Shown here one piece after another: positions 4,701 to 23,805 of a DNA stretch of 64,000 nt. This DNA comes from a bacterium (lineage in GTDB: Bacteria; Zhuqueibacterota; Zhuqueibacteria; Residuimicrobiales; Krinioviventaceae). The stretch is from positions 188,332-252,331 of the forward strand of contig JAKQIY010000047.1 in the NCBI GenBank assembly GCA_029561455.1. Reading direction: 5' to 3'. The notes beneath the pieces were generated by a model. That model was given only the letters and a program-made list of their open reading frames with translations, was not told where the DNA came from and ran no database searches. Position numbers and translations under genes: made by a program. How positions within the stretch are numbered: position 1 is the stretch's first letter; every line of letters starts with the position of its first letter.

Positions 4701-7700
4701 CCGCTTAAGGGAGTGTAACCATCGATAGTCACTTTGCCGTTAATTGTACATTGGTTAGCCGCCAGAGCCAGATTAATCCCTGAAGCGGTTGCCCCGCTTT
4801 GTACCGTTACCTGAACTGTTCCCGCCAGGGTGTGTCCCGGCTTGGCTGCCGACAGCGTATAGGTTCCGGAGGCAACGTTGAATGTAAACTGACCATAGGT
4901 ATCGGAAGTGGTTACCTGGGGAGCGCCGGACTGTGGAAAAGCTTTAACCTCGGCGCCCTGAATTTGCACAGCACCGTCGCTCACGACTCCGCGGATGATC
5001 GAGGCGTTGCCTTGCATGGTTATCGAGGGAGTAACAGTATAATCCTGGCCGCCTGTAACTGTAACAGTTCGTACCGGGGGAGATATAAAGCCCTGCTTTT
5101 CGGCGCTTAACTGAAATTCTCCATCCGGAGCAGAAAAGCTGAAATGACCGTTGGCGTTGGTAGATTTGGTATAGGTTACCGAATTTTGCAGGGTCACCTG
5201 CACACCAAACACCGGCTGCTGTAGTTCATTGACAACAACGCCGGAAATAGTGTTGGCATTTTTGGTGATCACCAGGTCGGCATCCAGCGCTTTATTTTCA
5301 CCACTTACCAGGGAGATCGATTGTTCTTCCGATGGCTGGTAGCCGTTTTTTGAGGCGAATACTTCAAAAGGTCCGGGTAAAATCGATAAACTAAAATTTC
5401 CCTGGTTGTCGGTAGAGGTGGTTTTTACAATATCGGCAAGCAGGGAATGCCGGGCGGTGACCAGGGCATCGTTGACCGGGTTTGCCGAGTTATCGACAAC
5501 CCTGCCGTAAATTTTACTTTGGCTCGGCGTCAGGCGGAATACCAGGTTATACGTTTGGTTTTCCAAAAACGACAATGTTTCGGTAATGGTGTTATAGCCT
5601 TCTTTCTTGACGGCAAATTTATAAGAACCGGGTGAAATATCATAGCCGCTGCGGGCGCCATGCAGATCGGTGGATAACGGCATGTTATTGTAAATCCCGG
5701 CTAACGCAGTATAGGTAATGGTTACCCGCGGCAGGATTTTATCATCATTTGTTACTTCCGGCGTTCCCTGGTCGTCATAGGTTGTGATAGAGACTACTGC
5801 CGACGGCGCTTCATAATAGAAATCGCGCGCTTCGCTCATCACTTCCAGGCCGCTTTCCGATACAGCGGCAACTTTCCAGCGATAACGCCCTTTCATTAAA
5901 AACTGCGCGGCCGGGTAATCATAACTCGTTTCGGTGGTGGCAATAATACTTTGCCATACGGCGCGGGCGCTTTCAATTCCCAGTTCATTTTCAATTTTAA
6001 ACGGATAAAAATGATATGTTTTGGCATTATCTACCTTACTCCAGGTAAAGGTGATCGTTTCATCATCCAGAACCACATCTTTAGCGGGACTGAGCAACTG
6101 CGGGGCGGTTATGTTGGGAGCCGGCAGATCAATTTTAAACCGGGAAATACCGGATTGTACCGGGGAGGTCATTTCCGCGGCATTCCCGTAACAGTTCAAC
6201 ACCACCCACCAGTAACTTGCTCCCGGAATGAGCGGTGTAGGAGCGCTGGTATAGGTGCCGCTGGGATCGGGATCGCCATAATGGGCGCTGTTTTCCGAAG
6301 TCAAAACCGACCAGATGGGATTAGCGCCTTCGACGGTGAATTCGCGCGTTACCGGGTCTTCGTTAATAATGATCTCCTGGTCGGAGCAGATCACCATATA
6401 ATAAGGTACGCCCGGCACCCGGTCCCAGGTAAAATCGGGAGACAGGTCGGTGATACTGCCAATCGGCGCCTGCATTTGCGGCGCGATGGGGCTTTCGATA
6501 ATGATCGTGAACGGCTCGCTGGAAACCTGGCCGTCGGTGATGCGGCAATAGTGCACGCCTAAACCCATACCGACAGCAGCAGGTGTAAATGAGACCTGGT
6601 TATTGCCGTCTTCGGCAATCGACCCGGTATAGACACCCGGTTTAATGCCATATTCAAAGCGGGCGGTTATCGGTTTGGGTTCGTACCACGCCAGGGTCAT
6701 CGGGATGTTTTGCAGATAAAAGGTAACTACCGAAGAGACCAGTTTGGGCTTGTCGGTATATTCTTCCACTTCAAGAGGCCAGACGATCTCGTCATAATAT
6801 TCCGCATCCGATACCCGGACTTTGAGTTCAACCATGCCTTTAAAGGTCTTGTTCGGGGTGTAATTGTACTGCGCCCCGGTTGCGCCGGAGATCAAATTGT
6901 TGTTCAAATACCAGCGGTATTGGGGAACTGTGCCGTTTTGATCCTGCGCCTGTACGGAAAAGGATGTTGTTACTCCGGCAATGATCGACATATTGACCGG
7001 CATGATCGCCGCAGGATCGGGCCGGGGTGAGAACGAGGTGATTTCCGGCGGCATATTGCCCAGCGCGCTGTTGCATTGAATGGTAACTTCCTGCTGGCCT
7101 GAAGCGGCAATATTGACATTCACATAATAGACATTGTAATTACCGGCGTCGATAACCTGCGCTACCGCGCCGCCGGTTACGGTGTAACCGGAACTGGTTT
7201 CCCGGACCAGGAATTTGAGCAAGCCGTTTTCAAAGGTTACCGGGTTCAAATTCTGAATGAGCGCTTTAACCCGCAGGTTGGTTCCGTCGTTGGCGGGGGT
7301 GTAACGGACATTCAGCTTGTTAAAATCTATGACCGGGTGTGACTGTAGCTCGTTACCGGATATTTTGATTATACGATACTGTCCGGTATTGTTCATGGTG
7401 TACGAGGTGTTCAGGTTTAGCGTGGGACGGGTGCCCAGCCGGTTTTCAGAATTGATGTGGGTATGACCATAAAGGGTCAACGCCAGTTGATAATCATCGA
7501 CAAAATCGTCATCGATCTGCCGGGATTCATCATAGTGATAGAACAAGATACGCATCAGGTCGTTACGGGTTAGCGAGGCCTGCAGATCTTTTTGCAGCCA
7601 TTGCATTTGTTCGGCGGTAAAAGTAACCGTAGGAATGTCGTACATTTCCATGCCGGCGTAATGGTGGCTGCCGTAATTAAAACTGTAATTCATGGATGGA

Positions 7701-8377
7701 TTAAAGTACTTTTTCCAGTTATTATGGCCGTCATACCACAGATCATGATTCCCGCCGGTAATGAACATGGGAATCTGCGCTTTATCCAGCAAATCCTGGC
7801 CCAGCTCGTAAGAGGATTCCTGGCGACCATTATCGACAAAATCACCGGTTTGCAGCACAAATTCGGGATTGATGATTTCCAGTTCGCGGATGACTTTGAG
7901 ATACTCCGGGATTGTGTTGGCGTCATCATAATAGCCCACCCAGCTTACCGCCGGCAAGTGCAGGTCGGGCAGGTGAACAAAGTAATATGAATTTTTAAAT
8001 CCGGTTACAACTTTGACGGCATGGGTAACCTGGTCTTCCAAACCCTGGGCGGTCACTTTTAAATGATAGAGTTCAAAAGGCGTATTGGCGGGAACGACCG
8101 CGGTTAGCTTCCATACTCCGGCGGTGTTGTCGTATTGCGGAGTTACCTGCAAGGCCACCTGGTTATAGGCGGTGCTGATGGTGGCCGCCCAGTTTTGCAC
8201 ACTGCTGGCGGCTTTACAGGTAATGCTGAAACTGCCGCCGGCCTGAACCAGCGCCGGTCGCGAGGTCAGTGGGCTTTGAATGACTGTTATACGATCGACC
8301 GGTAACACCACGGCTGCCGGTAATAACAGCAAAAGTATGGTTACAATTAACCGGGGGGGAATTTTTTTATATTTCAT
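1778..8377 (-). CDS. Giant secreted calcineurin-like phosphoesterase with many carboxypeptidase-regulatory-like domains and a T9SS sorting domain
   Basis: 2199 residues. Signal peptide about 1-27, then an Ig-like segment (30-125). A metallophosphoesterase domain follows (130-340) with the expected ligand motifs: D138-L-H140, G-D179, GGN210H211D, H281 and G-H305-T-H307. Ig/Fn3-like domains occupy roughly 440-830. After them come about a dozen beta-sandwich repeats of 75-85 residues (850-1850), each with the carboxypeptidase-regulatory-like pattern of a G-x-V opening, a T-x-x-x-G-x-F/Y centre and an A-x-K-x-G-Y/F end. The last ~95 residues are a T9SS/FlgD-like sorting domain: FLPNPFSP, then IYNMVGDLV and a NGRYLIHF-type strand. 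The protein should be exported by Sec and attached to or released from the surface by T9SS. The substrate is unknown. It is the first gene of the operon with the PorV-like protein. Confidence 0.9.
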   Translation of the reverse strand: MKYKKIPPRLIVTILLLLLPAAVVLPVDRITVIQSPLTSRPALVQAGGSFSITCKAASSVQNWAATISTAYNQVALQVTPQYDNTAGVWKLTAVVPANTPFELYHLKVTAQGLEDQVTHAVKVVTGFKNSYYFVHLPDLHLPAVSWVGYYDDANTIPEYLKVIRELEIINPEFVLQTGDFVDNGRQESSYELGQDLLDKAQIPMFITGGNHDLWYDGHNNWKKYFNPSMNYSFNYGSHHYAGMEMYDIPTVTFTAEQMQWLQKDLQASLTRNDLMRILFYHYDESRQIDDDFVDDYQLALTLYGHTHINSENRLGTRPTLNLNTSYTMNNTGQYRIIKISGNELQSHPVIDFNKLNVRYTPANDGTNLRVKALIQNLNPVTFENGLLKFLVRETSSGYTVTGGAVAQVIDAGNYNVYYVNVNIAASGQQEVTIQCNSALGNMPPEITSFSPRPDPAAIMPVNMSIIAGVTTSFSVQAQDQNGTVPQYRWYLNNNLISGATGAQYNYTPNKTFKGMVELKVRVSDAEYYDEIVWPLEVEEYTDKPKLVSSVVTFYLQNIPMTLAWYEPKPITARFEYGIKPGVYTGSIAEDGNNQVSFTPAAVGMGLGVHYCRITDGQVSSEPFTIIIESPIAPQMQAPIGSITDLSPDFTWDRVPGVPYYMVICSDQEIIINEDPVTREFTVEGANPIWSVLTSENSAHYGDPDPSGTYTSAPTPLIPGASYWWVVLNCYGNAAEMTSPVQSGISRFKIDLPAPNITAPQLLSPAKDVVLDDETITFTWSKVDNAKTYHFYPFKIENELGIESARAVWQSIIATTETSYDYPAAQFLMKGRYRWKVAAVSESGLEVMSEARDFYYEAPSAVVSITTYDDQGTPEVTNDDKILPRVTITYTALAGIYNNMPLSTDLHGARSGYDISPGSYKFAVKKEGYNTITETLSFLENQTYNLVFRLTPSQSKIYGRVVDNSANPVNDALVTARHSLLADIVKTTSTDNQGNFSLSILPGPFEVFASKNGYQPSEEQSISLVSGENKALDADLVITKNANTISGVVVNELQQPVFGVQVTLQNSVTYTKSTNANGHFSFSAPDGEFQLSAEKQGFISPPVRTVTVTGGQDYTVTPSITMQGNASIIRGVVSDGAVQIQGAEVKAFPQSGAPQVTTSDTYGQFTFNVASGTYTLSAAKPGHTLAGTVQVTVQSGATASGINLALAANQCTINGKVTIDGYTPLSGAVVSNSGISAQTTDGGNYSLGIDTGTHVLFAFKEGFTSTPPETIAVVPGQTLELVNFILSPNASVIKGRIIADGNGVYNARVEAINSHTVVTTSNEQGYYILNLESGSWTIRASKTGFAPAEINQVLVGVGQTVADVNLEMTTNIATLAGKVTKLSGGEAVKNVQIQVPALDLSTMTTADGSFSMTVNPGNYTVIAVKPGFRSITVQSGNLAVNQTSNLVIKLEELSSSFTGVIKDTDNNLLSGVTIAARSTVDSFFTTTGQNGSYQLYTKAGTWQVSANLDGYKTATLYTAQKINANQTITVPEVKLAPDRGTITGTIVRLLNSNPIPLARVTAKKENGFTAQTQSDNDGNFNFVDQDNKPILHSGMYNVYISKTGFTSDTLYNVKVESEKVVDVDVKLQKTDAVISGTVTCAGEPVGGATITVQYIASGAIFNAISQEDGSFQVKNLLGGHYQLRVACIGYTSPAPVNIITGTVNDLVLIRNRGRFCGYVRDNESNKAIADATVTADDQQGNNGTAKTDSRGYFDITGLPQLNNYTVRFSKSGYSTLTVGPEAATDSSYMLAKMDKIYGNISGLVKNNTGAAMAGVIVTAYSTTISRADTTGADGKFSFLRLPGDQYTVTARQVGYACDPIQHLVSLWQGGTVNTLDFTMLEAIAAQIKIIGPDNINNKKTQKYSFSALTKDAREASIEPIWKIDFMPSVDALGQDGLVDPKDDFLGYVQLQLEDTFTGLTATQNIYITQELIPGNTDINVSNKRGMHLAIQDSCVGQNVVVQFRRPVLAEVMKSNRNYQLVSDIFQFTPVGYTFLKPVTLSLPVPEGKSAQGLTIGKWNSTWLQWEAMENVSRDEQQLSVPVQTLGRFAVMEKAEPLGIREIKFLPNPFSPLAAPLEITYYLTSDKTENPLVTITIYNMVGDLVKNLVDSEFRRRGEVTETWDGITNYGRMALNGRYLIHFRIKDSSGEKEELKTFVLIK

Positions 8378-8853: not shown

Positions 8854-11175
8854 TCAGGCATCCAAAAACGAACGATTAATATTCAGCACCTCCAGGCTGT
8901 TTTCAAGGATTTTCAGGGCGCGATGGTATAACGCGGAGCAATCCGGCAGGGGCGCATCCGGATCGCCGTCCGCCGTCCAGGCGCGACAAAAGCCGCCGCA
9001 GATGTATTTGAGCATACAGGCCCGGCAGCCGCGGTTGCTGTCCACCGTGCAGGCCAGATAGCGGTCGTTCTTATTCAGGATACTATCCCAGTTATCGGTA
9101 AAGACATTGCCCAGGTAGTTCGTCTCCCCCATCACGGCGTAGCAGGGCCAGGTTGCGCCATCCGGGGCGATGTACAGGTTCATGCCCAGTCCGCAGGTGG
9201 AGGCGGGTTTGCGGATGTTGGCAATGGATTCGACGTCATCGTACAGCGAGGTGTCGAATTCCGGCGGCAGGGATAGCCCGGCAGCGCGTCCCAGCGGCAG
9301 CAACGGCTTGAAACGCACTGGCACTCCCAACTCTTCGCCGAGTTTGCGCACGGACTCGCCAGCGGCACCGTCATTCTGTTCCGGCGTCAACACCGCCGCC
9401 AGGGAGAGTTCCGCATCCTTTTTCAGGGCCAGCAGACTGCGGATATTGCCCAGCGCGGCCTCGTAACTGCCCCGGCCGCGGCGCGCGTCGTGCGTTTCTT
9501 TATCGCCGTCGATGCTGACTACGATCTGGTCCACACTCGCGGACAGCAGCGACAGTTCCTCAGCACTGAGCGGCATCGCCAGGTTAGTGCGCAACACCAG
9601 CAGCGCCGGTTTGATGTGCCGGCGCGCTTGCGCCAGGTCAGCTAAAAAATCTTTTCTTTTCGGAACCATGAGCGGTTCGCCGCCGGTGATGACCACCTTG
9701 CCGAAGCCCGCACCTGCCGCCCCGGCGATGAGCGGTTGCAGCTTGTCCAGGGGCAGGACGCTGTTATGTTGATCGGCATTGCCGGCGTAACAGTGCGCGC
9801 AGGCCAGGTTACACTTGTATGTGACGTGAATATAGGCGTTCACCAGGCGGCGGGAGGTGTCGTGCAAGTTATTCCACAGGTTTTGCAGACTGCCGCGCGC
9901 GGTTTGCGGATTGGTGACGAGTCCGAACTGCTGCAAACGCTGCAAAGCGCCCTCCACCGTGCCGGTCTGCGCCAGCGCGGCGCAGGATACGGTTTCGCGG
10001 GCGCGGGCGGCCAGTTGCTGCGGATGCGGGCCGCCGCGCATCACCTGCAACAGCGGGCCTTTTTTCAGTAAACCGTGACCGTTATTTTTGTCCTGTATTA
10101 CAGCATTCATATTCTCGTCCGAGAACACCTGTTCCAGGGCGCGGTCGGTGATATGTTCAAAGATGCGTTTATAGCCTTCGCACAGCGGATCGCGACGGTC
10201 GCTGCCGCCGGACATGGCGTTGTAAACGCAGCCACCGTGACAATAGCCAAAATGGGGACAGTCGCCGCAGTCCTCTTTAACCAGTTCCTCGCGTTCCGCC
10301 AGTTTGCGCCATACCGGGGTGCGGGACAATTCTTCCAGCGACGGCAGCTCCTGCACAAAGCCCAGCCGCCAGGAGTTATCGTGGGCAAAGCGGTTGCAGG
10401 AAAAGATGCCGCCGTCCGGGGCAATGGTGAGGTAATGGCCGAGGCAGTTGTTAAAAGTACACAGTCCGCCCTCGCCGCAGGAGATGCTGCGCGCCATGGT
10501 ATCGAACGTGGAAATTTTAATGCGCGACATGTTAGCCATGTAATGGTCGAACAGGGTGATGAACAGCTGGGCTTTTTCGGCGGCGGTAAGCGTCAGGTCG
10601 CTGGTGGGACAACCCAGGGAGGGCACGGCGCTGTGCACGGAAAAGGGCATGTTCTCATTGACGAAATAGTCAAACACCTCGCGCCAGCGCGGGGCGGATT
10701 TTTGCGTAAACGTACAGATCGCGCCGATGCCAAAGCCGTGCCGCCAGGCGGTCTCTACCCCGCGGCGATTGTTGGCGTAATAGCCGGGACCGCGCTGCGC
10801 GTCATTGATCGCCTCCGGGCCATCCAGGCTGGTGCTGATGGAGACGCGGTACTCTTTGAAGATCTGGCAAAACTCGTCGTTCAGCAGCCACAGGTTGCTT
10901 TGCACGCCCAGGTTAGCTTTGTCGTTAAAGCGGCTGCGGATGGCCGGCAGGGCGGCGCGATACCAGTCCACTCCCGCGGCCAGCGGTTCGCCGCCGTGAA
11001 AGCTGAGATGGACGTCCCTGTCCTTATCGCCAACCCCGGCAATCCACTCCAGCGCTTTTGCCAAAACGGACTGCTGCATGACCGGCCCCTTATTGGGCCC
11101 AAAACAGTACGCGCACCCCGCCGGGCAGGCCAGCGAGGGGAGGAGCATAAAGGTGGTGGGGTTGGGGATTTTCAT
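8854..11175 (-). CDS. Tandem dual radical SAM/SPASM protein (putative peptide or protein maturase)
   Basis: 773 residues with two complete radical SAM modules. Module 1: CxxxCxxC at C17/C21/C24, an anSME-like FHGGEP (59-64), and a SPASM-like Cys set at 233, 239, 244, 260, 303, 306, 312, 316 and 332. A linker of about 110 residues (340-447) without Cys motifs except C398 has a helical, possibly winged-helix-like look. Module 2: C455/C459/C462, TGGEP (497-501) and SPASM Cys at 661, 678, 717, 720, 726, 730 and 746. SPASM proteins bind auxiliary iron-sulfur clusters and commonly modify peptides or proteins; this is family knowledge. The gene starts 21 bases after the stop of a solenoid-repeat gene and ends a seven-gene run. 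Shortened copies of its 5' end lie between two other pairs of solenoid genes. Sampled stretches look more GC-rich than the solenoid genes. The substrate is unknown; the tails of the solenoid proteins are the obvious candidates. Confidence 0.9.
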   Translation of the reverse strand: MKIPNPTTFMLLPSLACPAGCAYCFGPNKGPVMQQSVLAKALEWIAGVGDKDRDVHLSFHGGEPLAAGVDWYRAALPAIRSRFNDKANLGVQSNLWLLNDEFCQIFKEYRVSISTSLDGPEAINDAQRGPGYYANNRRGVETAWRHGFGIGAICTFTQKSAPRWREVFDYFVNENMPFSVHSAVPSLGCPTSDLTLTAAEKAQLFITLFDHYMANMSRIKISTFDTMARSISCGEGGLCTFNNCLGHYLTIAPDGGIFSCNRFAHDNSWRLGFVQELPSLEELSRTPVWRKLAEREELVKEDCGDCPHFGYCHGGCVYNAMSGGSDRRDPLCEGYKRIFEHITDRALEQVFSDENMNAVIQDKNNGHGLLKKGPLLQVMRGGPHPQQLAARARETVSCAALAQTGTVEGALQRLQQFGLVTNPQTARGSLQNLWNNLHDTSRRLVNAYIHVTYKCNLACAHCYAGNADQHNSVLPLDKLQPLIAGAAGAGFGKVVITGGEPLMVPKRKDFLADLAQARRHIKPALLVLRTNLAMPLSAEELSLLSASVDQIVVSIDGDKETHDARRGRGSYEAALGNIRSLLALKKDAELSLAAVLTPEQNDGAAGESVRKLGEELGVPVRFKPLLPLGRAAGLSLPPEFDTSLYDDVESIANIRKPASTCGLGMNLYIAPDGATWPCYAVMGETNYLGNVFTDNWDSILNKNDRYLACTVDSNRGCRACMLKYICGGFCRAWTADGDPDAPLPDCSALYHRALKILENSLEVLNINRSFLDA

Positions 11176-11195
11176 ATGTTTATTGAATTTAACGC

Positions 11196-12896
11196 CTATA
11201 ATTTAAAGTATATAGTGGGGTAATCGCGATGATCCCCTCTGTTTATCATGCAGCCAGTCGAATCCGTCTCATCAATATGCTCCCCCCACTCCTTATTACC
11301 CTCATCTTGATGCGGTTTTATCAGAGTCCCTTTTAGTTTTAAAATTTTAGATTTATCTTGTGGTGATAAATATTTCTTTTGATATAATTGAATCAAGGTT
11401 TCATGATTTTGAGGAAATTTTTGGATTAGATCATTGACAATATCGTTTAATATTTTTGAATTGGTGATTGTTTCTACTGCAGCTCTAGAAGCATCTCCAT
11501 ATTGAGCATTTTTAACAACATCAACCAGGTTTTCCTGGTCGTCAAGTTTTTTCACTGCGGTCATGCGGATAACTTGTTCATTGTCATTTTTTGCTACTGT
11601 TGCCAGGCTTCCCTGGTCAGTGAGTTTCTGAACCGCAGTATAGCGCAACTCATAACAATAAGATTTATTTGTTGCTATCTCTGCCAGGACGGCCTGATTG
11701 TTGAGTTTTTCTATTGCAGCAAGACAAACATTAATATCTTTACTATTTTTCACCACATCGGCAAGGTTTGCCTGGTTGGTGATTTTTTCCACTGCAGCCA
11801 ATCCTACTTCTTCACTATTATCATATTTTGCCACTTTTGCCAGGACTGCCTGGTCGGTGAGTTTTTCCACAGCGTTCTTGCGGACATCCATATCTTCATC
11901 ATATATCGCCACATCAACTAACGCTGCCTGGCTGTTTTCCAAGCCAAGTTTTTTATAAGCACATTGGCGGATCATATAATATTCAGCATTTATTGCCACA
12001 TCAGCCAGAATCGCCTGATCGGTGAGTTTTTTTACTGCGGCTTTGCGGACATCACTATCTTCATCATTTTTCGCCACCTCGGCCAGGGCAGCCTGGTCGA
12101 TGAGTTTTTCCAGCGCGGCCTTGCGCACCCAATCATCTTTATCATTTTTCACCACCTCGGCTAGGACTGCCTGATCGGTGAGTTTTTCTACTGCGGTTAT
12201 GCGAACCTTTTTTTCTTTGTCATTTTTCGCAACTTTTGCCAGATCTGCCTGGTCGTTGAGTTGTTGTGTTGCCAAAAAGCGGATATCCACATCTTTATCA
12301 TTTTTCGCAACTTCGGCAAGTACCGCCTGATCGGTGAGTTTTTCTATAGCGGCCTTGTGGACGTCCTTGGCTTTAACATTTTTAACCACCCAAGTCAATA
12401 TTGTTTGGTCAAAAATTTTTTCAACCGCAATCTTGCGGACATTACTATCTACTTCAATTTGTGCAACTTGAGCCAGTGCAAACTGGTTAGTGAGTTTTTC
12501 AACAGCGGCAGAGCGGACATTGCTATATTTACCTTTTTTCGCTACATCGGTCAAGACTGTCTGATCAGAGAGTTTGTTCACGGCGGCCTTACAGACATCA
12601 CTGTCTTTATCATTTTTCGCCACATCGGCCAAGACTGTTTGATCAGTGAGTTTATTCACAGCGGCTATGCGAACATCGTAGTAGTTACCATTTTTCGCCA
12701 CATCGGCTACTGCTTCCGAACTGTTTTCCAGTCCCAGTTTTTTATAAGCGCATTGGCGAATATCATAATTATTATCATATTTCGACAATTCGACAAATAT
12801 CTCGTGGTTCTTCGGGTCATCCGGGTTAGCTTTGTCGATCCATTCTTTGCGTTTATCCGGGTTGGCGTTTTGCCATTTGGGGGTAAACAGGCCCAT
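11196..12896 (-). CDS. HEAT/LRV-like solenoid protein, array copy 1
   Basis: 566 residues from the chosen ATG at 12896. I chose it because a GGAGGG ribosome site sits 5 bases upstream and all five paralogues then begin MGLFT-x-KW; an in-frame ATG at 12908 would place that site inside the gene. After an N-terminal cap (KW, NPDKRKEW, NPDDPKN) come about 17 two-helix repeats of 26 residues with the pattern x-V-R-x-A-A-V-x-K-L-T-D-Q-x-x-L-A-x-V-A-K-N-D. A non-repeat C-terminal region ends in the family tail: HQD, HID, Cys, then HRDYPTIYFKL at the terminus. No signal peptide or membrane segment, so cytoplasmic. Such solenoids usually bind proteins. The radical SAM gene follows after 21 bases. The last ~120 codons are nearly identical to those of copy 5. 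Confidence 0.88.
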   Translation of the reverse strand: MGLFTPKWQNANPDKRKEWIDKANPDDPKNHEIFVELSKYDNNYDIRQCAYKKLGLENSSEAVADVAKNGNYYDVRIAAVNKLTDQTVLADVAKNDKDSDVCKAAVNKLSDQTVLTDVAKKGKYSNVRSAAVEKLTNQFALAQVAQIEVDSNVRKIAVEKIFDQTILTWVVKNVKAKDVHKAAIEKLTDQAVLAEVAKNDKDVDIRFLATQQLNDQADLAKVAKNDKEKKVRITAVEKLTDQAVLAEVVKNDKDDWVRKAALEKLIDQAALAEVAKNDEDSDVRKAAVKKLTDQAILADVAINAEYYMIRQCAYKKLGLENSQAALVDVAIYDEDMDVRKNAVEKLTDQAVLAKVAKYDNSEEVGLAAVEKITNQANLADVVKNSKDINVCLAAIEKLNNQAVLAEIATNKSYCYELRYTAVQKLTDQGSLATVAKNDNEQVIRMTAVKKLDDQENLVDVVKNAQYGDASRAAVETITNSKILNDIVNDLIQKFPQNHETLIQLYQKKYLSPQDKSKILKLKGTLIKPHQDEGNKEWGEHIDETDSTGCMINRGDHRDYPTIYFKL

Positions 12897-13016
12897 ACTT
12901 CCCTCCATAAATTGTTGTAATTTGGTATGAAATTAATATATTAAAAATTTACAATTTCACAAGTGTTATTCATCTCATTTCAATTAATGTTGGCCCCCTA
13001 AAAGTTCATATTTAAT

Positions 13017-13064
13017 GGGCCCAAAAGCAATACGCGCAACCCGCCGGGCGCGCCAGCGAGGGGA
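13017..13064 (-). pseudogene. Remnant 2 of the radical SAM gene 5' end
   Basis: About 48 bases in the gap downstream of array copy 2 match codons 13-27 of the radical SAM gene. Read on the minus strand they give PSLARPAGCAYCF, where the intact gene reads PSLACPAGCAYCFGP. The first cluster Cys has become Arg, an extra T in the TTTT run shifts the frame after the last Cys, and the start codon region is gone. It is a GC-rich island in AT-rich DNA. From the GGGCCC end onward it joins the same sequence as remnant 1, which leads into the upstream region of the next solenoid gene. Not coding. Confidence 0.85.
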
Positions 13065-13118
13065 ATAATTATATAACAAATATTTGAAAAAAACTTTTGT
13101 CTGGCTATATTAATATTA

Positions 13119-14450
13119 TTAAACACAATCTGTATGACTTGCTAAACCACCCCACCCCGGCCCGGAAAAATCTTTATGATCATATGTCACATCATTATGA
13201 GGTTCGTTATCCACAAAAGTTTTTCTTTCCCGTGCTTGAGTAATTTTTAATTGGAGTTCGCGTTCCTTTTCCTCAATCTCTTTGATTTCCTCTCCTCTTT
13301 TCTGTAAAATCAAAAGTTTGTCATTTTGTGATAAAATCTTTATATCTTTAATTATCTTTAATATTTGTATGTCCTCATCATTTCCTCGATTAATTAAATG
13401 CTGAATTACATTACTTAATAACTTTGCATCATTAATTTTACGTAATGCCATAGCTCGAATGTCTAAATCTTTAGCATTTTTCGCCACCTCGGCCAGAGTT
13501 GCCTGATCTTTTAGTCTTTCCACTGCCGCCTCGCGGACTTGCCGATCATCATCTTTTTTCGCCACCTCAAACAGAACCGCCTGATCGTTGAGTTTTGCCA
13601 CTGCGGACACGCGAACCTCATTATCTTTTTCATTTTTCACCACCTCGGCCAGGATAGCCTGATCGTTGAGTTTTGCCACTGCGGCTTTGCGGACTTCCCA
13701 ATTTTCATCCTCTTTAGCTATCTCGGCCAGAACCGCCTGGTCGGTGAGTCTTTTAGCAGCGGCCTTGCGAACATTACTAACCTTATCATTTTTCGACACA
13801 TCCGCCAAGGTTGCCTGGTCGGTGAGTTTTGCCACTATGGCTTTGCGCACTTCCCAATTTTCATCCTTTTTAGCCATCTCAGCCAGAACCGCCTGGTCGG
13901 ATAGGTTTGCAACAGCGGCCTGGCGGACATTGTAATCTTTATCATTTTGCACCATCTCGACCAGGATAGCCTGGTCGGTGAGTTTTACCACAGCGGTATA
14001 GCGGACAAAGTCTTTATCATTTTTCGCCAAATCTATCAGGATAGCCTGATCGGTAAGTTTTGCCACTGCGGCCCTGCAAACATGAAAATCTTCAGCTTTT
14101 TTCGCGACCTCAGCCAAGGTAGTCTGGTTGGTGATTTTTTTAACTGCGTCCATGCGGGCCAAATCGTCTTTAGCGTTTTTCGCGACCTCAGCCAGGGCAG
14201 CCTGGTCGGTTAGTCTTTCCACAGCTGCCTTGCGGACTTCATAATGTTCATCATTATTCGCCACATCAGCCAGGTCTGATTGGTCGGTGAGTTTTGCTAC
14301 TGCGGCCTTGCGAACTTCTCTGTTTGTATCATTTTTCGCCAGTTCAGCTAAAATCTCCTGGTTTTTCGGGTCATTGGGGTTTGCTTTTTCAGCCCAATCG
14401 TTGCGTTTAACCGGGTCATTGCTTTGCCATTTGGGGGTGAATAGCCACAT
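13119..14450 (-). CDS. HEAT/LRV-like solenoid protein, array copy 2
   Basis: 443 residues from ATG 14450, chosen by the GGAGGG site and the shared MWLFTPKW start (Gly replaced by Trp). About 12 repeats of 26 residues follow the same N-terminal cap. The C-terminus differs from the other copies: a charged, possibly coiled-coil stretch rich in Glu/Lys/Arg (about 375-415) leads into a divergent tail with HND, HKDF and a final SHTDCV. It therefore keeps three His-x-Asp motifs and a Cys but has lost the PAEYFKL end. The ~45 bases upstream of its start are almost the same as those of copy 1, so the two are recent duplicates in this part. A radical SAM gene remnant lies downstream. Confidence 0.87.
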   Translation of the reverse strand: MWLFTPKWQSNDPVKRNDWAEKANPNDPKNQEILAELAKNDTNREVRKAAVAKLTDQSDLADVANNDEHYEVRKAAVERLTDQAALAEVAKNAKDDLARMDAVKKITNQTTLAEVAKKAEDFHVCRAAVAKLTDQAILIDLAKNDKDFVRYTAVVKLTDQAILVEMVQNDKDYNVRQAAVANLSDQAVLAEMAKKDENWEVRKAIVAKLTDQATLADVSKNDKVSNVRKAAAKRLTDQAVLAEIAKEDENWEVRKAAVAKLNDQAILAEVVKNEKDNEVRVSAVAKLNDQAVLFEVAKKDDDRQVREAAVERLKDQATLAEVAKNAKDLDIRAMALRKINDAKLLSNVIQHLINRGNDEDIQILKIIKDIKILSQNDKLLILQKRGEEIKEIEEKERELQLKITQARERKTFVDNEPHNDVTYDHKDFSGPGWGGLASHTDCV

Positions 14451-14534
14451 ACTTCCCTCCATAAATTGTTGTAATTTGGTATAGAATTATTGTATTAAAA
14501 TTTTGCACTAATTTCAAGTGGAATTCATATTTTT

Positions 14535-14651
14535 TCAATAAATGTTAGCCCCCCAAAGCATATATTTAGTGGGCCCAAAGCACCACGCGCACCCCGCCGG
14601 GCACGCCAGCGAGGGGAGCCGCATAAAGGAGGTGGGGGATTGAGGTTTCAT
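14535..14651 (-). pseudogene. Remnant 1 of the radical SAM gene 5' end
   Basis: A 38-codon frame starting at ATG 14651 and ending at TGA 14537-14535. Its first 27 codons align with the N-terminus of the radical SAM protein: MKPQSPTSFMRLPSLACPAG then CAWCFGP, against MKIPNPTTFMLLPSLACPAG then CAYCFGP. The CxxxCxxC motif is intact. After GGGCCC the homology stops abruptly and the frame runs 11 codons into unrelated AT-rich DNA. The 21-base spacer between the solenoid stop and this ATG is also homologous to the spacer in front of the intact gene. A truncated duplicate; translation as a 38-residue peptide is possible but unlikely to matter. Confidence 0.88.
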
Positions 14652-14671
14652 TGGGTTATTTAATTAAGCGC

Positions 14672-15970
14672 CTATAGTTTAAAATATTCTGCAGGGTAGT
14701 CTTTATGACAATAATAATTATAAATATTTCCAGTATCGCAATTAAAACCATCTATATGAACCTTTGAATCCCTGTGCTTGGCCACCTCAAATCCTTCTCG
14801 TTGTAATATTTTGTTTTTGTCTTTTTGTAGTAAAGTTACTTTTTTGAAAATTTGTTTCAAAAGTTGTACATTTTCATGGTTTAATTTTTCAATTAACTGA
14901 TCAATTACAAGACCCAGCAATTCAGAATCATTAAGGTTGCTCACGGCAATTGTGCAGATATCAAAATCTTTACAATCAATAATAATCTCAGGCAATAATT
15001 CCTGTTTGGTAAGCAGCGCTATGGCTTTTTTGCGGTTATTTAGGTCTTTGTCTTTTTTAACGACTTTGACCAAGACTTCTTGATTTGTTAGCTTGGTTAA
15101 CGCTGCATGGCGAACTATACTTTCCTGATCGTTAATTACCACATTAGCTAAAACGACCTGATCGGTAAGTTTTTCAACTGCTGCCATGCGAACATCTTTG
15201 TCAATATCTTTTTTTACAACAATATTTAGTACTCCTTGAATTATAATATTTTTCACAGCTGCTAACCGTATCTCTCTATCCTTACTGTTCAAGACAAAAT
15301 CTGTTAATACTGCCTGATTGGTGAGTTTTTCCACTGCATTAACACGCTCTTTTAAATATGCGGCATTTTTCGCTCTATCTGTCAATGCTTCCTGGCAATT
15401 CTCGAGGTTGAGAATTTTATAAGCGCTCTGCCGTACACTAAAATCTTGATCGTTTTTTGCAATTGCCAAAAGTACATCATGTTCATCAAGTTTTTCAACA
15501 GCAGCTTTACGAACAGCAATATCGCTATCATTTTTTGCTACGTTTTCCAATACTATTTTATCGACGACTCTTTCAACTGCGGCTTTGCGTGCAGCAAAGT
15601 ATTCACTATGTTCTGCCACATCAGCAAGCAGTTTTGGGTCTGTGAGCATTTTAACCGCAGTCATACAAATATCATGATCTTTATCCTTTTGTGCAATATT
15701 AGCAAGTAAAATTTGATCGGTAAGTTTTTCTACAGCTCTTTTACGGATTTCCCAGTTGTTTTCATTTTTTATAATTTCGGCTAAAACTTTATAGGTGTTT
15801 TCCAACTCAAGCTTTTGGTATGCGGCAAAGCGAACCGGCCAGGTAGCATCATTTTCTGCAAGGTCATATAATATTTCCTGGTTTTTAGGGTCATCCGGGT
15901 TGGCGGTTTCAATCCATTCTTTGCGTTTATCCGGGTTGTTGCTTTTCCATTTTGGGGTGAACAGGCCCAT
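14672..15970 (-). CDS. HEAT/LRV-like solenoid protein, array copy 3
   Basis: 432 residues starting MGLFTPKW, with GGAGGGATGT directly before the ATG. About 12 repeats of 26 residues, more divergent and more AT-rich than copies 1 and 2, including two LGLEN-type turns in place of LTDQ. The C-terminal region carries HRD, HID, two Cys and the end CHKDYPAEYFKL. It stops 21 bases before remnant 1 of the radical SAM gene, with the same spacing and spacer sequence as copy 1 has to the intact gene. This copy therefore once sat directly upstream of a radical SAM reading frame. Confidence 0.87.
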   Translation of the reverse strand: MGLFTPKWKSNNPDKRKEWIETANPDDPKNQEILYDLAENDATWPVRFAAYQKLELENTYKVLAEIIKNENNWEIRKRAVEKLTDQILLANIAQKDKDHDICMTAVKMLTDPKLLADVAEHSEYFAARKAAVERVVDKIVLENVAKNDSDIAVRKAAVEKLDEHDVLLAIAKNDQDFSVRQSAYKILNLENCQEALTDRAKNAAYLKERVNAVEKLTNQAVLTDFVLNSKDREIRLAAVKNIIIQGVLNIVVKKDIDKDVRMAAVEKLTDQVVLANVVINDQESIVRHAALTKLTNQEVLVKVVKKDKDLNNRKKAIALLTKQELLPEIIIDCKDFDICTIAVSNLNDSELLGLVIDQLIEKLNHENVQLLKQIFKKVTLLQKDKNKILQREGFEVAKHRDSKVHIDGFNCDTGNIYNYYCHKDYPAEYFKL

Positions 15971-16053
15971 ACATCCCTCCGTTACATAATATTATGAAAA
16001 TAATCAATTTTATTCCTCAACCATTCCGCTATCAGCAGGTTTATACCTGAACC

Positions 16054-16884
16054 TTACAGTTTAAAATTCTCTGCTGGAAAATCTTTATGTTCGCCTTTAT
16101 CAGTATGCGTGCTGCACAGGTTTGTGTAATCAAAATGATGATTTTTCTGGCGGTCAATATCAATATGCCCCCGTACTTGCTTCCCGACAAGTTGTAAAAT
16201 AGTATGTTTGTCTTCCGGGCGCAGGGTTTCTTTACGATAGAGTATTTTTAAAATTTCAGCCGTATTGATGTCCAAATGATCGACCATATATTGAACCAGC
16301 ATACCCAGCAGTTCAGGATTGGTGAGCTTTTCCAGGGCATCGACCCGTTGCTGCCAGTCCCGGTCATTTATTATCACATCGGCCAGCGCTTCCTGGCTTG
16401 TTTCCAATCCCAGCTTGCTAAAGGCGGCCATACGGACCAGGTAATCCCGGTCATTTTTTGCCACTTCAGCCAGGAGCGCGGGATCGGTCAGTCTGCTTAC
16501 CGCCGTTTTGCGCAGCTTGCTGTCCTGTTCACTTTTTATTACCTCCGCTAACAGAAGCTGATCGGAGAGTTTATTGATTGCCGCCTTGCGCACGGCGCTT
16601 TCCGGGCTGTTTTTTATAAGAGTTGCCAGGAGTGAGTTGTCTGTAATCCTTTTTATTGCTGCTTTGCGAATATCCAGCATAGTATCGTTATTTGCAATCC
16701 AGGCCAGCAGGGACTGATCGGCAAGCTTTTCTGTAACCGCCAGACGGACAGCCGCTTCCTGATCTTGTTTTGCCAATTCATAAAGGATTTCCCGGTTTTT
16801 GGGGTCTTCCGGGTTGGCGCTTGCAACCCATTCTTTGCGTTTCTCCGGGTTGTTGCTTTGCCATTTGGGGGTGAATAAGCCCAT
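16054..16884 (-). CDS. HEAT/LRV-like solenoid protein, array copy 4 (short)
   Basis: 276 residues from ATG 16884 (GGAG 8 bases upstream; an in-frame ATG at 16896 precedes the ribosome site). It is the shortest member, with about 6 full repeats after the common cap. The tail is the richest of the family: HID, HHFD, Cys, HTD and the end HKDFPAENFKL, so four His-x-Asp motifs. It begins 32 bases after the stop of copy 5, which suggests coupled expression. No radical SAM remnant lies in the 83-base gap before copy 3. Confidence 0.87.
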   Translation of the reverse strand: MGLFTPKWQSNNPEKRKEWVASANPEDPKNREILYELAKQDQEAAVRLAVTEKLADQSLLAWIANNDTMLDIRKAAIKRITDNSLLATLIKNSPESAVRKAAINKLSDQLLLAEVIKSEQDSKLRKTAVSRLTDPALLAEVAKNDRDYLVRMAAFSKLGLETSQEALADVIINDRDWQQRVDALEKLTNPELLGMLVQYMVDHLDINTAEILKILYRKETLRPEDKHTILQLVGKQVRGHIDIDRQKNHHFDYTNLCSTHTDKGEHKDFPAENFKL

Positions 16885-16915
16885 GTTTTTCTCCATAACG
16901 TTCTAAATGAATTCC

Positions 16916-18646
16916 CTACAATTTAAAATATTCAGCAGGGTGATCGCGATGAGACCCCCTATTGACTAAACAACCATTACTCCAACCATCATAATGCTCA
17001 CCCCACTCCTTATTACCCTCGTCCTGGTGTGGTTTTATCAGAGTCCCTTTTAACTTGAATATTTTTGATTTGTCTTGATGTGATAAATATTTTTTTTGAT
17101 ATAATTGAATCAAGGTTTCATAATTTTGAGGAAATTTTTGGATCAGATCATTGACAATATCGTTTAATCTTTTTTCATTAGTGATCTTTCCTGCTGCGGC
17201 CACTGAAGCATTACCATACTGAGCATTTTTTACAACATCAACCAGTGTCGCCTGGTCGTCAAGTTTTTCCACTGCGGTCATACGAATCGGAGAAAAACTG
17301 TCGGTTTTTGCAAACCCGGCTAAAACTGCCTCATCAGTCAGCTTTTCCAGTGCGGCAAGGCGAACATTATCAACTTTATCATTTGTCGCTATATTGGTCA
17401 GAACTGCCTGATCAGTGAGTTTATCTATCGCAGCAAGACGAACACTACCATCTTCATCATTGGTCGCCACATCTGCCAGGATAGAATGATCGGAAATTTT
17501 TCTTACAGCGGCCTTACGGATCTGATAGTTACTGTCATTTTTTGCCAGTTCAGTCAAGTCTGCTTGATTGGTGAGTTTATCTATCGCGGCAAGACGAATA
17601 TCATCAACTGTATCATTTTTTGCAATTAACGTGAGTACTGTCTGGTCGAAAAGTTTACCTACAGCAACCATTCGGACTTGCCATTCTTTGTCAATTTTTG
17701 CAATATCAGCCAGAACTTGTTTGTCCACAAGTTTTTCCACTGCTGCCATACGGACATCACTATCGAAATCATTTTTTGCAACATCGGCAAGAGCTGCCTG
17801 ATCGGTGAGTTCTTTTACTACAGTTTTTCGAATATCACCCAATAAATAAACATTTGTCATGTCTGTTAATTGAGCATCTCCCCATAAATACTTTTTTGTT
17901 AAATCTGTTAATTGTTCCTTACTCTCAGCTATTCCCAGCATTATATAAGCAATCATTCGGACTTGATAAGCTTCATCATTTTTCGCGATATCGGCCAAAA
18001 CTGACGGATCGGGAGCGAGTCTAACCAACGCAGCTTGGCGGACATTCACTTCTTTATCGTTTTTCGCCACTTCTGCTAATGTTGCCTGATCTGAGAGTCT
18101 TTCCACAGCTGCATAGCGAGCTTCGTTAGCGTGAGCTTTTTTTGCTACATCAGCCAGAGCTGTCTGATCGTCAAGTTTGGTTATTAATGTATTACAAATT
18201 TCCCAGGATTGTTCCTCAAGTGCCATGTTTACTAATACTGATTGATCTACGATTTTATCAATAGCGACTTTACGGATACTTAACTCTTTGTCGTTTTTTG
18301 CAACTTGCGCCAAAACTTTCTGATCAGTAATTTTACACACTGCAACCTTTCGGATCAGACCTGCCTTGTCAGTTTTAGCAATTTCAGCCAAGGCTTGCTG
18401 ATCTAAAAGTTTTTCCACAGCAACTTTACGATTATCATCATAAGAATCATTTTTTGCTACATTGGCAAGAATACACTGATCGGTTAGTTTTTCTATTGCT
18501 ACACTCCGGACAAATGCTTCAGGATCACTTTTAGCCAACACTGCCAATATTTCCTGGTTTTTCGGATCCTCCGGGTTGGCGCTTTTAATCCACTCTATAC
18601 GTTTAAGCCGGTTTTTGCTTTTCCATTTGGCGGTAAACAATCCCAT
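16916..18646 (-). CDS. HEAT/LRV-like solenoid protein, array copy 5
   Basis: 576 residues starting MGLFTAKW, with AGGAG about 8 bases upstream. About 17 repeats of 26 residues; one irregular stretch near residues 240-275 has two short YLWGD/YLLGD units inserted between repeats. The C-terminal ~120 residues match copy 1 almost residue for residue and end with HQD, HYD, Cys and HRDHPAEYFKL, whereas the remaining repeats of the two proteins do not align as a simple duplicate. It begins 20 bases after the stop of the P-loop NTPase gene, so it is the second gene of the operon. Confidence 0.87.
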   Translation of the reverse strand: MGLFTAKWKSKNRLKRIEWIKSANPEDPKNQEILAVLAKSDPEAFVRSVAIEKLTDQCILANVAKNDSYDDNRKVAVEKLLDQQALAEIAKTDKAGLIRKVAVCKITDQKVLAQVAKNDKELSIRKVAIDKIVDQSVLVNMALEEQSWEICNTLITKLDDQTALADVAKKAHANEARYAAVERLSDQATLAEVAKNDKEVNVRQAALVRLAPDPSVLADIAKNDEAYQVRMIAYIMLGIAESKEQLTDLTKKYLWGDAQLTDMTNVYLLGDIRKTVVKELTDQAALADVAKNDFDSDVRMAAVEKLVDKQVLADIAKIDKEWQVRMVAVGKLFDQTVLTLIAKNDTVDDIRLAAIDKLTNQADLTELAKNDSNYQIRKAAVRKISDHSILADVATNDEDGSVRLAAIDKLTDQAVLTNIATNDKVDNVRLAALEKLTDEAVLAGFAKTDSFSPIRMTAVEKLDDQATLVDVVKNAQYGNASVAAAGKITNEKRLNDIVNDLIQKFPQNYETLIQLYQKKYLSHQDKSKIFKLKGTLIKPHQDEGNKEWGEHYDGWSNGCLVNRGSHRDHPAEYFKL

Positions 18647-18665
18647 ACTAATCTCCTGTATTATA

Positions 18666-19259
18666 TCAAGATTTAATTATTTTATCCATAATCTTAAAAT
18701 AGCATGCTCGCTTTTCTTCCCAATCCGGCGAGCTTTTAATAAAGTGGTAGCGGGGATGATCGCGCCACACCTCGTACAGCAATTCATCCAGCCTGGCCGC
18801 CTTGTCCGGGGGCTCGCCGCGATGGGCATTGGGGTAGTACTGGTAAGCAGATTGAGCATTCACGGCGGCGGTTTGTAAATGGATAACGGCGGTATAGCGG
18901 TCGTAATGCTGTTGTTGTGAAGTGTTGGTCAGGGTATAGAAATCCGTTTCGGGCCGGCCGGCATTCAGCCAGTAAGCAATGGGGTCTAATGTGCCGCGAT
19001 GGCAGAGAATGATTTTATCAGGAAAGCAGGTTGCGACGGCGTCTTCCATGCCGGACTGGATTTCCACCATCAGGCGCTGAAAAACCGGTTCAATGGGGGA
19101 AATGCCGGTTTGCAGGGCATAAAACACCGCTTCAGGCAAGGAGATAATGTGGTTGGCATATTCGGGGATAGTACATAATTCTTTAATGAGCGTAGTCTTG
19201 CCGCCGCCGGGTCCACCGGTCAGGACAATCACTTTATTGTGGGTGGCATTGTTTTCCAT
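18666..19259 (-). CDS. AAA_28-type P-loop NTPase/kinase-like protein
   Basis: 197 residues from the ATG at 19259 (MENNATHNK). A TTG 45 bases upstream is the alternative start. I prefer the ATG because this family has its P-loop within the first ~15 residues; no clear ribosome site favours either. Walker A GGPGGGKT is at 15-22. A DKIILCHRGTLDPIAYW segment resembles the Walker B/lid region of AAA_28 (NadR/Ttd14-like) ATP-binding proteins, and an Arg-rich part lies near the C-terminus. Such proteins are small nucleotide-dependent kinases or switches whose substrates are mostly unknown. It leads the solenoid/radical SAM operon, 20 bases before copy 5, so a role in that system is likely by context only. 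Confidence 0.8.
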   Translation of the reverse strand: MENNATHNKVIVLTGGPGGGKTTLIKELCTIPEYANHIISLPEAVFYALQTGISPIEPVFQRLMVEIQSGMEDAVATCFPDKIILCHRGTLDPIAYWLNAGRPETDFYTLTNTSQQQHYDRYTAVIHLQTAAVNAQSAYQYYPNAHRGEPPDKAARLDELLYEVWRDHPRYHFIKSSPDWEEKRACYFKIMDKIIKS

Positions 19260-19425
19260 GTATTGAAAAGATAAAAAGTAATAGTTCTTTTTTCCGGCCC
19301 TCAAACAACCCGCTTCTCAAGATGTGAAAATAAATTAAAAGTTTTGCGGAATTTAACAAGGGATATTTACATTTTTTCTATATTTTATATCACTCCGCCA
19401 TAAGGGTTGGTACGATAAGGAGTTT

Positions 19426-19639: not shown

Positions 19640-19681
19640 CTAATTATTGCATTGCACTTACTTAAATACGAGGGATACCTG

Positions 19682-21811
19682 ATGAAAATCACCAAGCTGT
19701 GCCTAGTACTGGGTATTGTATTTATTTTCATTCCGGCATTGTTAACCGCGGCCACACTGACCGGTAAAGTTACCGATGCCCTGACCGGCATTGCCCTGCC
19801 CGGCGCCAATATCGTCGTCGAAGGCACCGAACGCGGCGCCGCCAGCGATTCCGAAGGCAATTATATAATCAAGAGTCTCCCGGCCGGGCGTTATACCATC
19901 AAAGCCAGTTTTATCGGCTATGAAATCTCCAGCCGCAAACTCACTCTGGCTGATGAAGAAGCACGCGCCCTGGACTTTAAACTGCGGGAAAGTTTTTTCC
20001 AAACCCAGCAGGTGGTGATCACCGCTACCCGCGAGGAACGGATACTGGAGAATGTTCCGGTGGTGACGGAGATCATTGGCAAACCCGAAATTGAAGAACG
20101 CGGCGCTGAAAACCTGGCCCAGGCGCTGGAAGACCGGCCCGGTATCATCATCCAGGAGAATGCTTCCGGCGGCAAGAGCCTGAATCTGAACGGTATCGAC
20201 GGGCGGCGCGTGTTGATTTTGGTGGACGGACTGCCCATATCCGGCAAACTCAATAACCAGGTGGATTTGACCTTGCTGGACAGCGACCGCATCGAACACA
20301 TTGAAATTGTCAAAGGCCCGGCCTCGGCGCTGTACGGCAGCGAAGCCATGGGCGGGGTGGTCAATATCATTACCAACAAGGCAACGGACAAGAATACGAT
20401 CCGTATCAAACAAAAATATGGCACCAACGACCTCACCAGCGGCAACCTGTACATGTCCGGACGGCAATTGGGCATCGGTTACCAGTTGAATGTCGACCGC
20501 ACCCGCGGCGGAGTGGATAAAAACGAAGCGCTGATCGAGATAAGCGATCTGTGGAGCGACGGTGTGGATGGCAAGATCAGTTTCCAGGCGCCGGTTCTCG
20601 GCACAATAACCGCCGGTACCGAATATAAAAAAGACGGCCATGACTACCAGGAAACCTCAACCGGTCACGGCGGATCGGTCACTGTTTATGATGACGAAGC
20701 CAGGGTAGAACGCCTCAACAGTGTTATCGGTATTAACCGCACTCTGAAAAAGGCCGATATAGCTATCCAGGTATATCGCCATGATTATAAGCGGGAACTG
20801 ACTACCAAAAAACAAGGCGCGACAACAGCGCCGACCGTAGCGGTGAACGACGAGTTGTTGTATGGCCTTAAATCTGATTTCCGCTACCATGTTTCCGATA
20901 AACTGGAACTGGATATGGGGTATGATTACAGTAACGACGCCTACAAATCCGACCGCTTGTTGTACGATTCAGTTGAGCGAGAGTTGCACGGCATATTCGG
21001 CCAGGTGGAATACAAACCGGTTACACGGGTTACGCTGCTGGCCGGCGGGCGGTACGACAAAATTTCCCATTTCGACGGCTATACCAGTCCCCGCGTCAGC
21101 GCAATGGTTGAGTTGTTACAGGATTTGAAATTACGCGCTTCATGGGGCGGCGGGTTCCGCGCGCCTTCGTTCACGGATATGTATATTGACTATAGCAATC
21201 CGTATGTGGTGGTCAAGGGCAACCCCGATCTGAAACCGGAAAAATCCAGTGGCGGCAATGCCGGACTGGAATACATCTGGAACGGCAATGTGATGACCAG
21301 CGTTTCTTATTTTCATAACCGGTTTACCGATTTGATCATGGACTATGTTGTTCCCGGCACGGGTGTTTCCAGCTATCTCAATATTGATGACGCCAGGTTC
21401 ACCGGCATCGAGTTCCAGAACCGCATTTTTGTGCTGAATAATTTGACCACTACCTTTGGCTATAATTATACCCATATCGAACAGAGCGATGAAGATTTCT
21501 CCATTGCGCGGATTTCACCGCACACCGCCTCGCTACGCATAGTCTACAAACTGTTCCGCAACCGGGTCAGCCTCTCCTTCCGCGAACAATACTCCGGCAA
21601 GCGGGATATCAAGGTGTTTGATCCGCAAGCCCATAAATACAATATCGAACAAAAAAACGCCTACAGTTTGATGGATGCCTCTTGCATAATCAAAGTTAAC
21701 AGCTATCTGTCCTTGCAGGGCGGCGTTACCAATGCGCTGGATTATCGTGATAAAGATTATGGGCCCTGGGTCGGCAGGCGTTATTTTATCACAATGAATA
21801 CCGAGTTTTAG
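19682..21811 (+). CDS. TonB-dependent outer-membrane receptor
   Basis: 709 residues from the ATG at 19682, chosen because a clean signal peptide (MKITKLCLVL...LLTAA) begins there and GAGG lies upstream; an earlier in-frame start at 19652 only adds a non-signal extension. After the signal comes a carboxypeptidase-regulatory-like domain (about 24-105: GKVTDALTG, GANI, GNYIIKSLPAG). The TonB plug follows (about 120-235: NGIDGRRVLILVDGLP, then RIEHIEIVKGPASALYGSEA and GGVVNIIT), then a barrel ending in aromatic FITMNTEF. The family imports siderophores, cobalamin, metals or glycans using the proton-motive force. The ligand cannot be read from sequence. The barrel has the size of siderophore/cobalamin receptors rather than of SusC proteins, and no SusD gene is adjacent. 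A MarR regulator follows directly. Confidence 0.93.
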   Translation: MKITKLCLVLGIVFIFIPALLTAATLTGKVTDALTGIALPGANIVVEGTERGAASDSEGNYIIKSLPAGRYTIKASFIGYEISSRKLTLADEEARALDFKLRESFFQTQQVVITATREERILENVPVVTEIIGKPEIEERGAENLAQALEDRPGIIIQENASGGKSLNLNGIDGRRVLILVDGLPISGKLNNQVDLTLLDSDRIEHIEIVKGPASALYGSEAMGGVVNIITNKATDKNTIRIKQKYGTNDLTSGNLYMSGRQLGIGYQLNVDRTRGGVDKNEALIEISDLWSDGVDGKISFQAPVLGTITAGTEYKKDGHDYQETSTGHGGSVTVYDDEARVERLNSVIGINRTLKKADIAIQVYRHDYKRELTTKKQGATTAPTVAVNDELLYGLKSDFRYHVSDKLELDMGYDYSNDAYKSDRLLYDSVERELHGIFGQVEYKPVTRVTLLAGGRYDKISHFDGYTSPRVSAMVELLQDLKLRASWGGGFRAPSFTDMYIDYSNPYVVVKGNPDLKPEKSSGGNAGLEYIWNGNVMTSVSYFHNRFTDLIMDYVVPGTGVSSYLNIDDARFTGIEFQNRIFVLNNLTTTFGYNYTHIEQSDEDFSIARISPHTASLRIVYKLFRNRVSLSFREQYSGKRDIKVFDPQAHKYNIEQKNAYSLMDASCIIKVNSYLSLQGGVTNALDYRDKDYGPWVGRRYFITMNTEF

Positions 21812-21816
21812 GTATA

Positions 21817-22251: not shown

Positions 22252-22261
22252 GGAATAAAGC

Positions 22262-22295
22262 AAGGCTCCGCAGAATTAAGCACGGAGCCTTTTTG
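22262..22295 (+). terminator. Rho-independent terminator after the marR gene
   Basis: AAGGCTCCG and CGGAGCCTT form a perfect 9-bp stem around a 12-base loop, followed by a short T-run (TTTTTG), ten bases after the stop codon. Confidence 0.85.
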
Positions 22296-23796: not shown

Positions 23797-23805
23797 CGAG
23801 ATAAT

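Follow-up and report, generated by a model that had tools for sequence, protein, structure and literature searches.

A candidate protein-modification system pairing HEAT-repeat proteins that carry multi-HxD tails with a TIGR04083-type radical SAM/SPASM enzyme

Results

Five HEAT solenoid genes precede a double radical SAM/SPASM gene

The locus lies in a 64,000-nucleotide stretch of DNA (the window; by this we mean the whole stretch analysed) and consists of seven ORFs, all on the minus strand (Table 1). A sequence-only reading of the same DNA had described them as a seven-gene operon. While the genes do share a strand, the intergenic gaps along the locus measure 19, 19, 83, 209, 210 and 20 bp, and because two of them are long, a single seven-gene transcript is uncertain; one of the long gaps contains a promoter-like site (14517–14489), which is a consensus match only. 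As judged by eye, the locus is flanked on one side by a gene for a 2199-aa protein (1778–8377, minus strand), which is calcineurin-type metallophosphatase-like, continues into many carboxypeptidase-regulatory-like repeats and ends in a secretion-type C-terminus. On the other side, adjoining the locus but outside it, positions 19652–25116 (plus strand) appear to encode a TonB-dependent receptor, a MarR-type regulator and two MiaB/MtaB-type methylthiotransferases.

Table 1. Features of the locus, by window position
Feature	Position	Strand	Evidence
AAA_28 P-loop NTPase	18666..19304 (ATG start at 19259)	-	Pfam AAA_28, 64.9 bits
HEAT solenoid HA, 576 aa, ~17 repeats	16916..18646	-	ORF, Pfam HEAT, repeat HMM
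HA C-tail: 4 HxD, 1 Cys, end HRDHPAEYFKL	16919..17098	-	tail motif count
HEAT solenoid HB, 280 aa, ~7 repeats	16054..16896	-	ORF, Pfam HEAT, repeat HMM, AlphaFold2 model
HB C-tail: 4 HxD, 1 Cys, end HKDFPAENFKL	16057..16236	-	tail motif count
HEAT solenoid HC, 432 aa, ~13 repeats	14672..15970	-	ORF, Pfam HEAT, repeat HMM
HC C-tail: 3 HxD, 2 Cys, end HKDYPAEYFKL	14675..14854	-	tail motif count
Remnant 1 of radical SAM 5' end, ~37 codons including CPAGCAWCFGP	14541..14651	-	similarity to enzyme start
HEAT solenoid HD, 447 aa, ~13 repeats	13119..14462	-	ORF, Pfam HEAT, repeat HMM
HD C-tail: 3 HxD, 1 Cys, sequence unrelated to FKL tails, end SHTDCV	13122..13301	-	tail motif count
Remnant 2 of radical SAM 5' end, frameshifted, shorter	13012..13064	-	alignment to enzyme 5' end and remnant 1; self-BLAST
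HEAT solenoid HE, 570 aa, ~17 repeats	11196..12908	-	ORF, Pfam HEAT, repeat HMM
HE C-tail: 3 HxD, 1 Cys, near-copy of HA tail	11199..11378	-	alignment, motif count
Radical SAM/SPASM N-module, residues 1-350, TIGR04083 family	10126..11175	-	363.7 bits; alignment with second-phylum enzymes
Linker of double enzyme; its start (...LL[KR]xGP...) also in single-module enzymes	9859..10125	-	alignment
Second radical SAM/SPASM module, residues 440-773, so far only in the window's genus	8857..9858	-	Radical_SAM and SPASM matches

The five solenoid genes had been recognised as paralogues built of 26-residue repeats, and the HEAT-type nature of the units is borne out by the Pfam HEAT family, which is over cut-off in all five, and by a repeat HMM (unit counts in Table 1). 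The N-terminus reported as common to the paralogues, MGLFT-x-KW, also holds: it reads MGLFT[PA]KW, with one member starting MWLFTPKW. AlphaFold2 predicts a HEAT-like solenoid for the 280-aa HB (mean pLDDT 89.1), and structure comparison matches this model to alphaRep and YibA chains; the proteins thus combine a HEAT profile match with a predicted alpha-solenoid fold. At the end of the array a cap motif, LSxxDKxxIL or a near variant, precedes the tail.

The last gene (8854–11175, minus strand) encodes, as had been proposed, two full radical SAM/SPASM modules. The CxxxCxxC motif is C17/C21/C24 in the N-module and C455/C459/C462 in the second, and in both modules the set of SPASM cysteines is complete.

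HxD motifs are concentrated in the solenoid tails

To the five window solenoids we added a sixth from a genome of the same genus (G001, see below). Within the C-terminal 60 residues of these six proteins, 20 of the 23 histidines stand in an HxD motif, as compared to a mean of 2.1 HxD motifs when the same tails are shuffled; none of 50,000 shuffles reached 20. Leaving out HE, the tail of which is a near-copy of that of HA, gives 17 motifs with 1.8 expected. The repeat bodies (~2,490 residues with 20 histidines) contain a single HxD. Both the sequence and the spacing of the tails diverge strongly, and the HxD motif persists: across the tail-bearing HEAT proteins of both phyla in which we found them, each tail has two to four. 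One or two cysteines are present in every window tail and in the same-genus tail. Repeated aromatic(i)-x-residue(i+2) motifs in the C-terminal region, the mark of triceptide precursors, are found here in the form of HxD, at 20 against 2.1. The sequence-only reading had passed over the HxD motifs.

Remnants of the enzyme gene lie between solenoid genes

Two segments between solenoid genes, overlooked in the sequence-only reading, are truncated copies of the first ~37 codons of the enzyme gene, one between HC and HD and the other between HD and HE. Remnant 1 is 59% identical to the enzyme start over residues 1–37 (E=1.9e-8) and 83% over 124 bp at the nucleotide level. The HC–HD and HD–HE gaps share homology that extends to the starts of the solenoid genes; between remnants 1 and 2 a GC-rich stretch around CxxxCxxC is conserved and the flanks drift. 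Tandem duplication of a unit made of a solenoid gene and the enzyme 5' end is the simplest reading of these sequence similarities. Furthermore, the HA and HE genes are 68–96% identical per 50-bp block over the last ~350 bp, which encode cap and tail, as compared to 44–76% in the preceding 450 bp. Because the identity between HA and HE is concentrated in cap and tail, and the HD tail is unrelated, the solenoid copies appear to have swapped tails.

The N-module belongs to TIGR04083

The N-module is a member of TIGR04083 (NCBIfam rSAM_pep_methan, 'peptide-modifying radical SAM enzyme'), scoring 363.7 bits against a cut-off of 300. The same model gives 368.7 for the G001 enzyme and 345.9, 325.3 and 299.9 for three enzymes of a second phylum, the last of which scores 300 when its in-frame neighbours are included. 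The CxxxCxxC motif and SPASM cysteines of the N-module are conserved in all five enzymes compared, and the SPASM sets of both modules are kept in the 66%-identical G001 homologue. The window protein carries a fused second radical SAM/SPASM module; the second-phylum enzymes align without it. This module matches Radical_SAM and SPASM, and its weak best maturase models are StsB, nif11, PapB and SCIFF. As regards an RRE or PqqD-like leader-binding domain, the linker gave no family match, and the AlphaFold2 model of the double enzyme is poor (pLDDT 39.7).

After TIGR04083, the next-best models for the N-module include DynA (dynobactin), PapB, YhhB, AmcB, GrrM/OscB, FxsB, the nif11 maturases and sulfatase maturase; against the known cyclophane-maturase models (GrrM/OscB, YhhB, XyeB, FxsB) the enzyme is well below all cut-offs. 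By sequence, the closest solved structures are anaerobic sulfatase maturases (anSME; 4k36, 4k37), enzymes that modify whole proteins. However, the N-module scores 172.8 with the anSME equivalog model, the cut-off of which is 349.45, and the window pair includes no sulfatase. Because TIGR04083 is about equally close to anSME and to some cyclophane enzymes, similarity does not fix the type of reaction. A control search found a TIGR04083 member in Methanosarcina acetivorans as well. No described target of this family came to light; the open-access literature searched neither mentions TIGR04083 nor contains a paper combining RiPP, radical SAM and HEAT repeat.

The pairing recurs in the genus and in a second phylum

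Among 82 genomes of the window's phylum, TIGR04083 is over cut-off only in the window genome and in G001. The latter has one solenoid of 543 aa (MGLFTPKWKS..., tail KHTDNVIQPHIDGPNDFGGHTDCAPVYKN), encoded 22 bp upstream of the 66%-identical double enzyme, in a chromosomal setting that differs from the window's and has no NTPase gene. Flanking this pair, as judged by eye, are a sulfatase-maturase-like gene and a sulfatase/fucosidase-like pair (L032, 6873–8141, 13189–14763 and 14791–16317, all plus strand).

A sample of 388 genomes yielded one further TIGR04083 carrier, G260, which belongs to a different phylum; three of the four genomes examined from that phylum have the gene. Its product there is a single-module enzyme, 38–43% identical to the window enzyme. 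At all three loci it is followed on the same strand, 94–247 bp downstream, by a gene for a HEAT protein of 204–205 aa, so that the order (enzyme, then HEAT) is opposite to that in the window. The tails of these HEAT proteins have two HxD each (e.g. ...LAGWHHSDTAGGGRHSDVGVGIEFPNEPPETKS). A profile of their C-terminal part had strong matches in exactly those three genomes among 386 and one weak match elsewhere (E=0.005), and the sister genome G115 has neither the enzyme nor the HEAT/HxD protein. PBS-lyase HEAT proteins (CpcE, CpcF, NblB) match the body of the second-phylum HEAT protein weakly, but the scores are far below the cut-offs and the matches do not extend to the HxD tail. At one of the loci (G389), a SAM-dependent methyltransferase-like gene, identified by eye, starts 39 bp after the HEAT/HxD gene (L088, 4500–5318, minus strand); none was seen at the other loci.

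The earlier proposal that solenoids and maturase are linked, for which recurrence in distant genomes had been named as support, is thus strongly supported: the pairing recurs in G001 and, with a different HEAT protein and a single-module enzyme, at three of three TIGR04083 loci of another phylum. What changes is the part that is modified, which is probably the C-terminal HxD tail and not the solenoid itself. Solenoid homologues that usually lack a radical SAM gene had been named as evidence against the link. This objection applies in part: such HEAT proteins do exist without the enzyme, but those of the same repeat kind that we examined elsewhere in the window genome (contig C67), in G001 (C106) and in G013 lack HxD-rich tails. 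Since, in addition, the other radical SAM/SPASM loci examined in the window genome have no such solenoid adjoining them, the HxD tail tracks the enzyme and not the HEAT fold.

The NTPase fared differently. It had been proposed as a regulator or kinase of the system, but no homologue was found in G001 or in 23 further relatives, and we reject it as a conserved part; the AAA_28 protein is probably accessory or a passenger.

In G003, a genome of the window's family, the enzyme gene is represented by its 5' portion alone, which lies at the end of a contig (L033, contig C559, ~1–527, minus strand), with no solenoid upstream. The fragment, in which a TGA in frame directly precedes the conserved motif TSLDGP, could reflect gene decay or an error in the sequence. 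Scanning genome contigs with the enzyme also returned 22 remote relatives, which fall outside the family and none of which lies beside a solenoid of the same repeat kind. Searches of viral contigs, with the enzyme, the enzyme alignment and the solenoids as queries, returned nothing or remote radical SAM proteins of at most 31% identity; from plasmids and phages came generic maturases, a single weak HEAT match or nothing.

Discussion

We propose a protein-modification system in which a HEAT scaffold with a multi-HxD tail is paired with a radical SAM/SPASM enzyme of the TIGR04083 type, the tail being what the enzyme modifies, and we put the probability of this reading at roughly 0.68. Compared with the system drawn from the sequence-only reading, the functional unit is both smaller and of wider occurrence: one HxD-tailed HEAT protein beside a TIGR04083 enzyme. 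The window locus is an expanded form of it, with five substrate paralogues, enzyme-5' remnants that probably stem from tandem duplication, and a second module fused to the enzyme.

That the HxD tail is the substrate of the enzyme is, on the sequence comparisons, probable. The HEAT array with its conserved C-terminal cap would play the part of an outsized 'leader', bringing the tail to the enzyme, and the tail would be a multi-site 'core' in which each HxD is one modification site. In the chemistry that we favour, the His ring of every HxD would become bonded to the beta carbon of the Asp two positions further on, giving a three-residue cyclophane. Known triceptide enzymes join residue i to Cbeta of residue i+2 in triplets that include His-x-Ala, His-x-Arg, Tyr-x-Asp and Trp-x-Asp (PMC11002830); the ring can thus belong to His and the accepting carbon to Asp, and no His-x-Asp is among the triceptide examples we found there (PMC11002830). 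Because such His donors and Asp acceptors are reported, and because cyclophane models are among the best-scoring for the N-module, we favour a His-Asp cyclophane as the product, a tentative assignment by analogy to which we give somewhat less than an even chance. The triceptide systems (XncB, OscB, HaaB, YhhB, YxdB) resemble the present one in having a SPASM maturase and aromatic-x-y triplets in the precursor. Their precursors, however, are peptides and not HEAT proteins of 200–580 aa, and the enzyme here falls under a different model.

The tail could be modified in another manner, without a His-Asp C–C bond: by oxidation, by epimerisation or by a Cys-Asp thioether as in ranthipeptides. The N-module also scores with the PapB (ranthipeptide) and sulfatase maturase models, StsB, nif11, PapB and SCIFF head the weak matches of the second module, and each window tail has a cysteine. 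We nevertheless regard this as somewhat less likely: His and Asp invariably stand at i and i+2, which is not true of the position of the cysteine, and cyclophane enzymes that act at exactly this spacing are known (PMC11002830).

Two further readings we consider improbable. While His, Asp and Cys suit a metal site, and tails of the window's genus have three to four HxD and one or two cysteines, the spacing of the HxD motifs varies freely and the tail cysteine is absent from two of the three second-phylum proteins. Repeated independent sites fit this variability better than one fixed metal site does. The presence of the tail also tracks that of the enzyme, which argues against unmodified metal-binding tails and an enzyme whose target is another part of the solenoid, or for which the solenoid is no more than a partner or scaffold. 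Similarly doubtful is a reading in which the tails are released by cleavage and leave the cell as small peptides, for instance antibiotics, which would make the solenoids ordinary RiPP precursors with giant leaders. Hypervariable tails with a kept motif, several paralogues and recombined tails do resemble a precursor repertoire, but we saw no protease or exporter gene common to the five complete loci. Finally, although HEAT proteins are common and the G003 enzyme fragment has no visible partner, a chance neighbourhood of functionally unconnected genes is very improbable given linkage at five of five loci with a complete enzyme gene, in two phyla, in both gene orders and with the same tail motif, and given the joint absence of enzyme and HEAT/HxD protein from G115.

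Returning to the proposed tail modification, the protein probably remains whole in the cell, because no protease or exporter is linked in common to the five loci; the modified tail would then stay on an intracellular scaffold and could function in metal binding, in partner binding or in an enzymatic role. In the window's genus the second module may modify the tail further, perhaps at the cysteine found in all tails of the genus. This second reaction is speculation, which we offer because the weak best matches of the module are thioether-forming or related maturases and the tails contain Cys. In the window, the substrate gene would have been duplicated to five copies, carrying along fragments of the enzyme 5' end.

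More broadly, and with the odds in our estimate somewhat below even, TIGR04083 enzymes may form a widespread and so far undescribed class that installs multiple His-Asp crosslinks on hypervariable HEAT tails, one genus having expanded the scheme to a five-substrate array and a two-reaction enzyme. With the HEAT/HxD partner proposed here, a family whose annotation goes no further than 'peptide-modifying' acquires a candidate substrate and modification site that are concrete enough to be tested. For enzymology, it would be convenient to have a naturally occurring enzyme with two radical SAM modules and substrates that offer two to four uniform sites per molecule. If the proposal is true, cyclophane-type radical chemistry would extend from small peptides to the tails of folded scaffold proteins.
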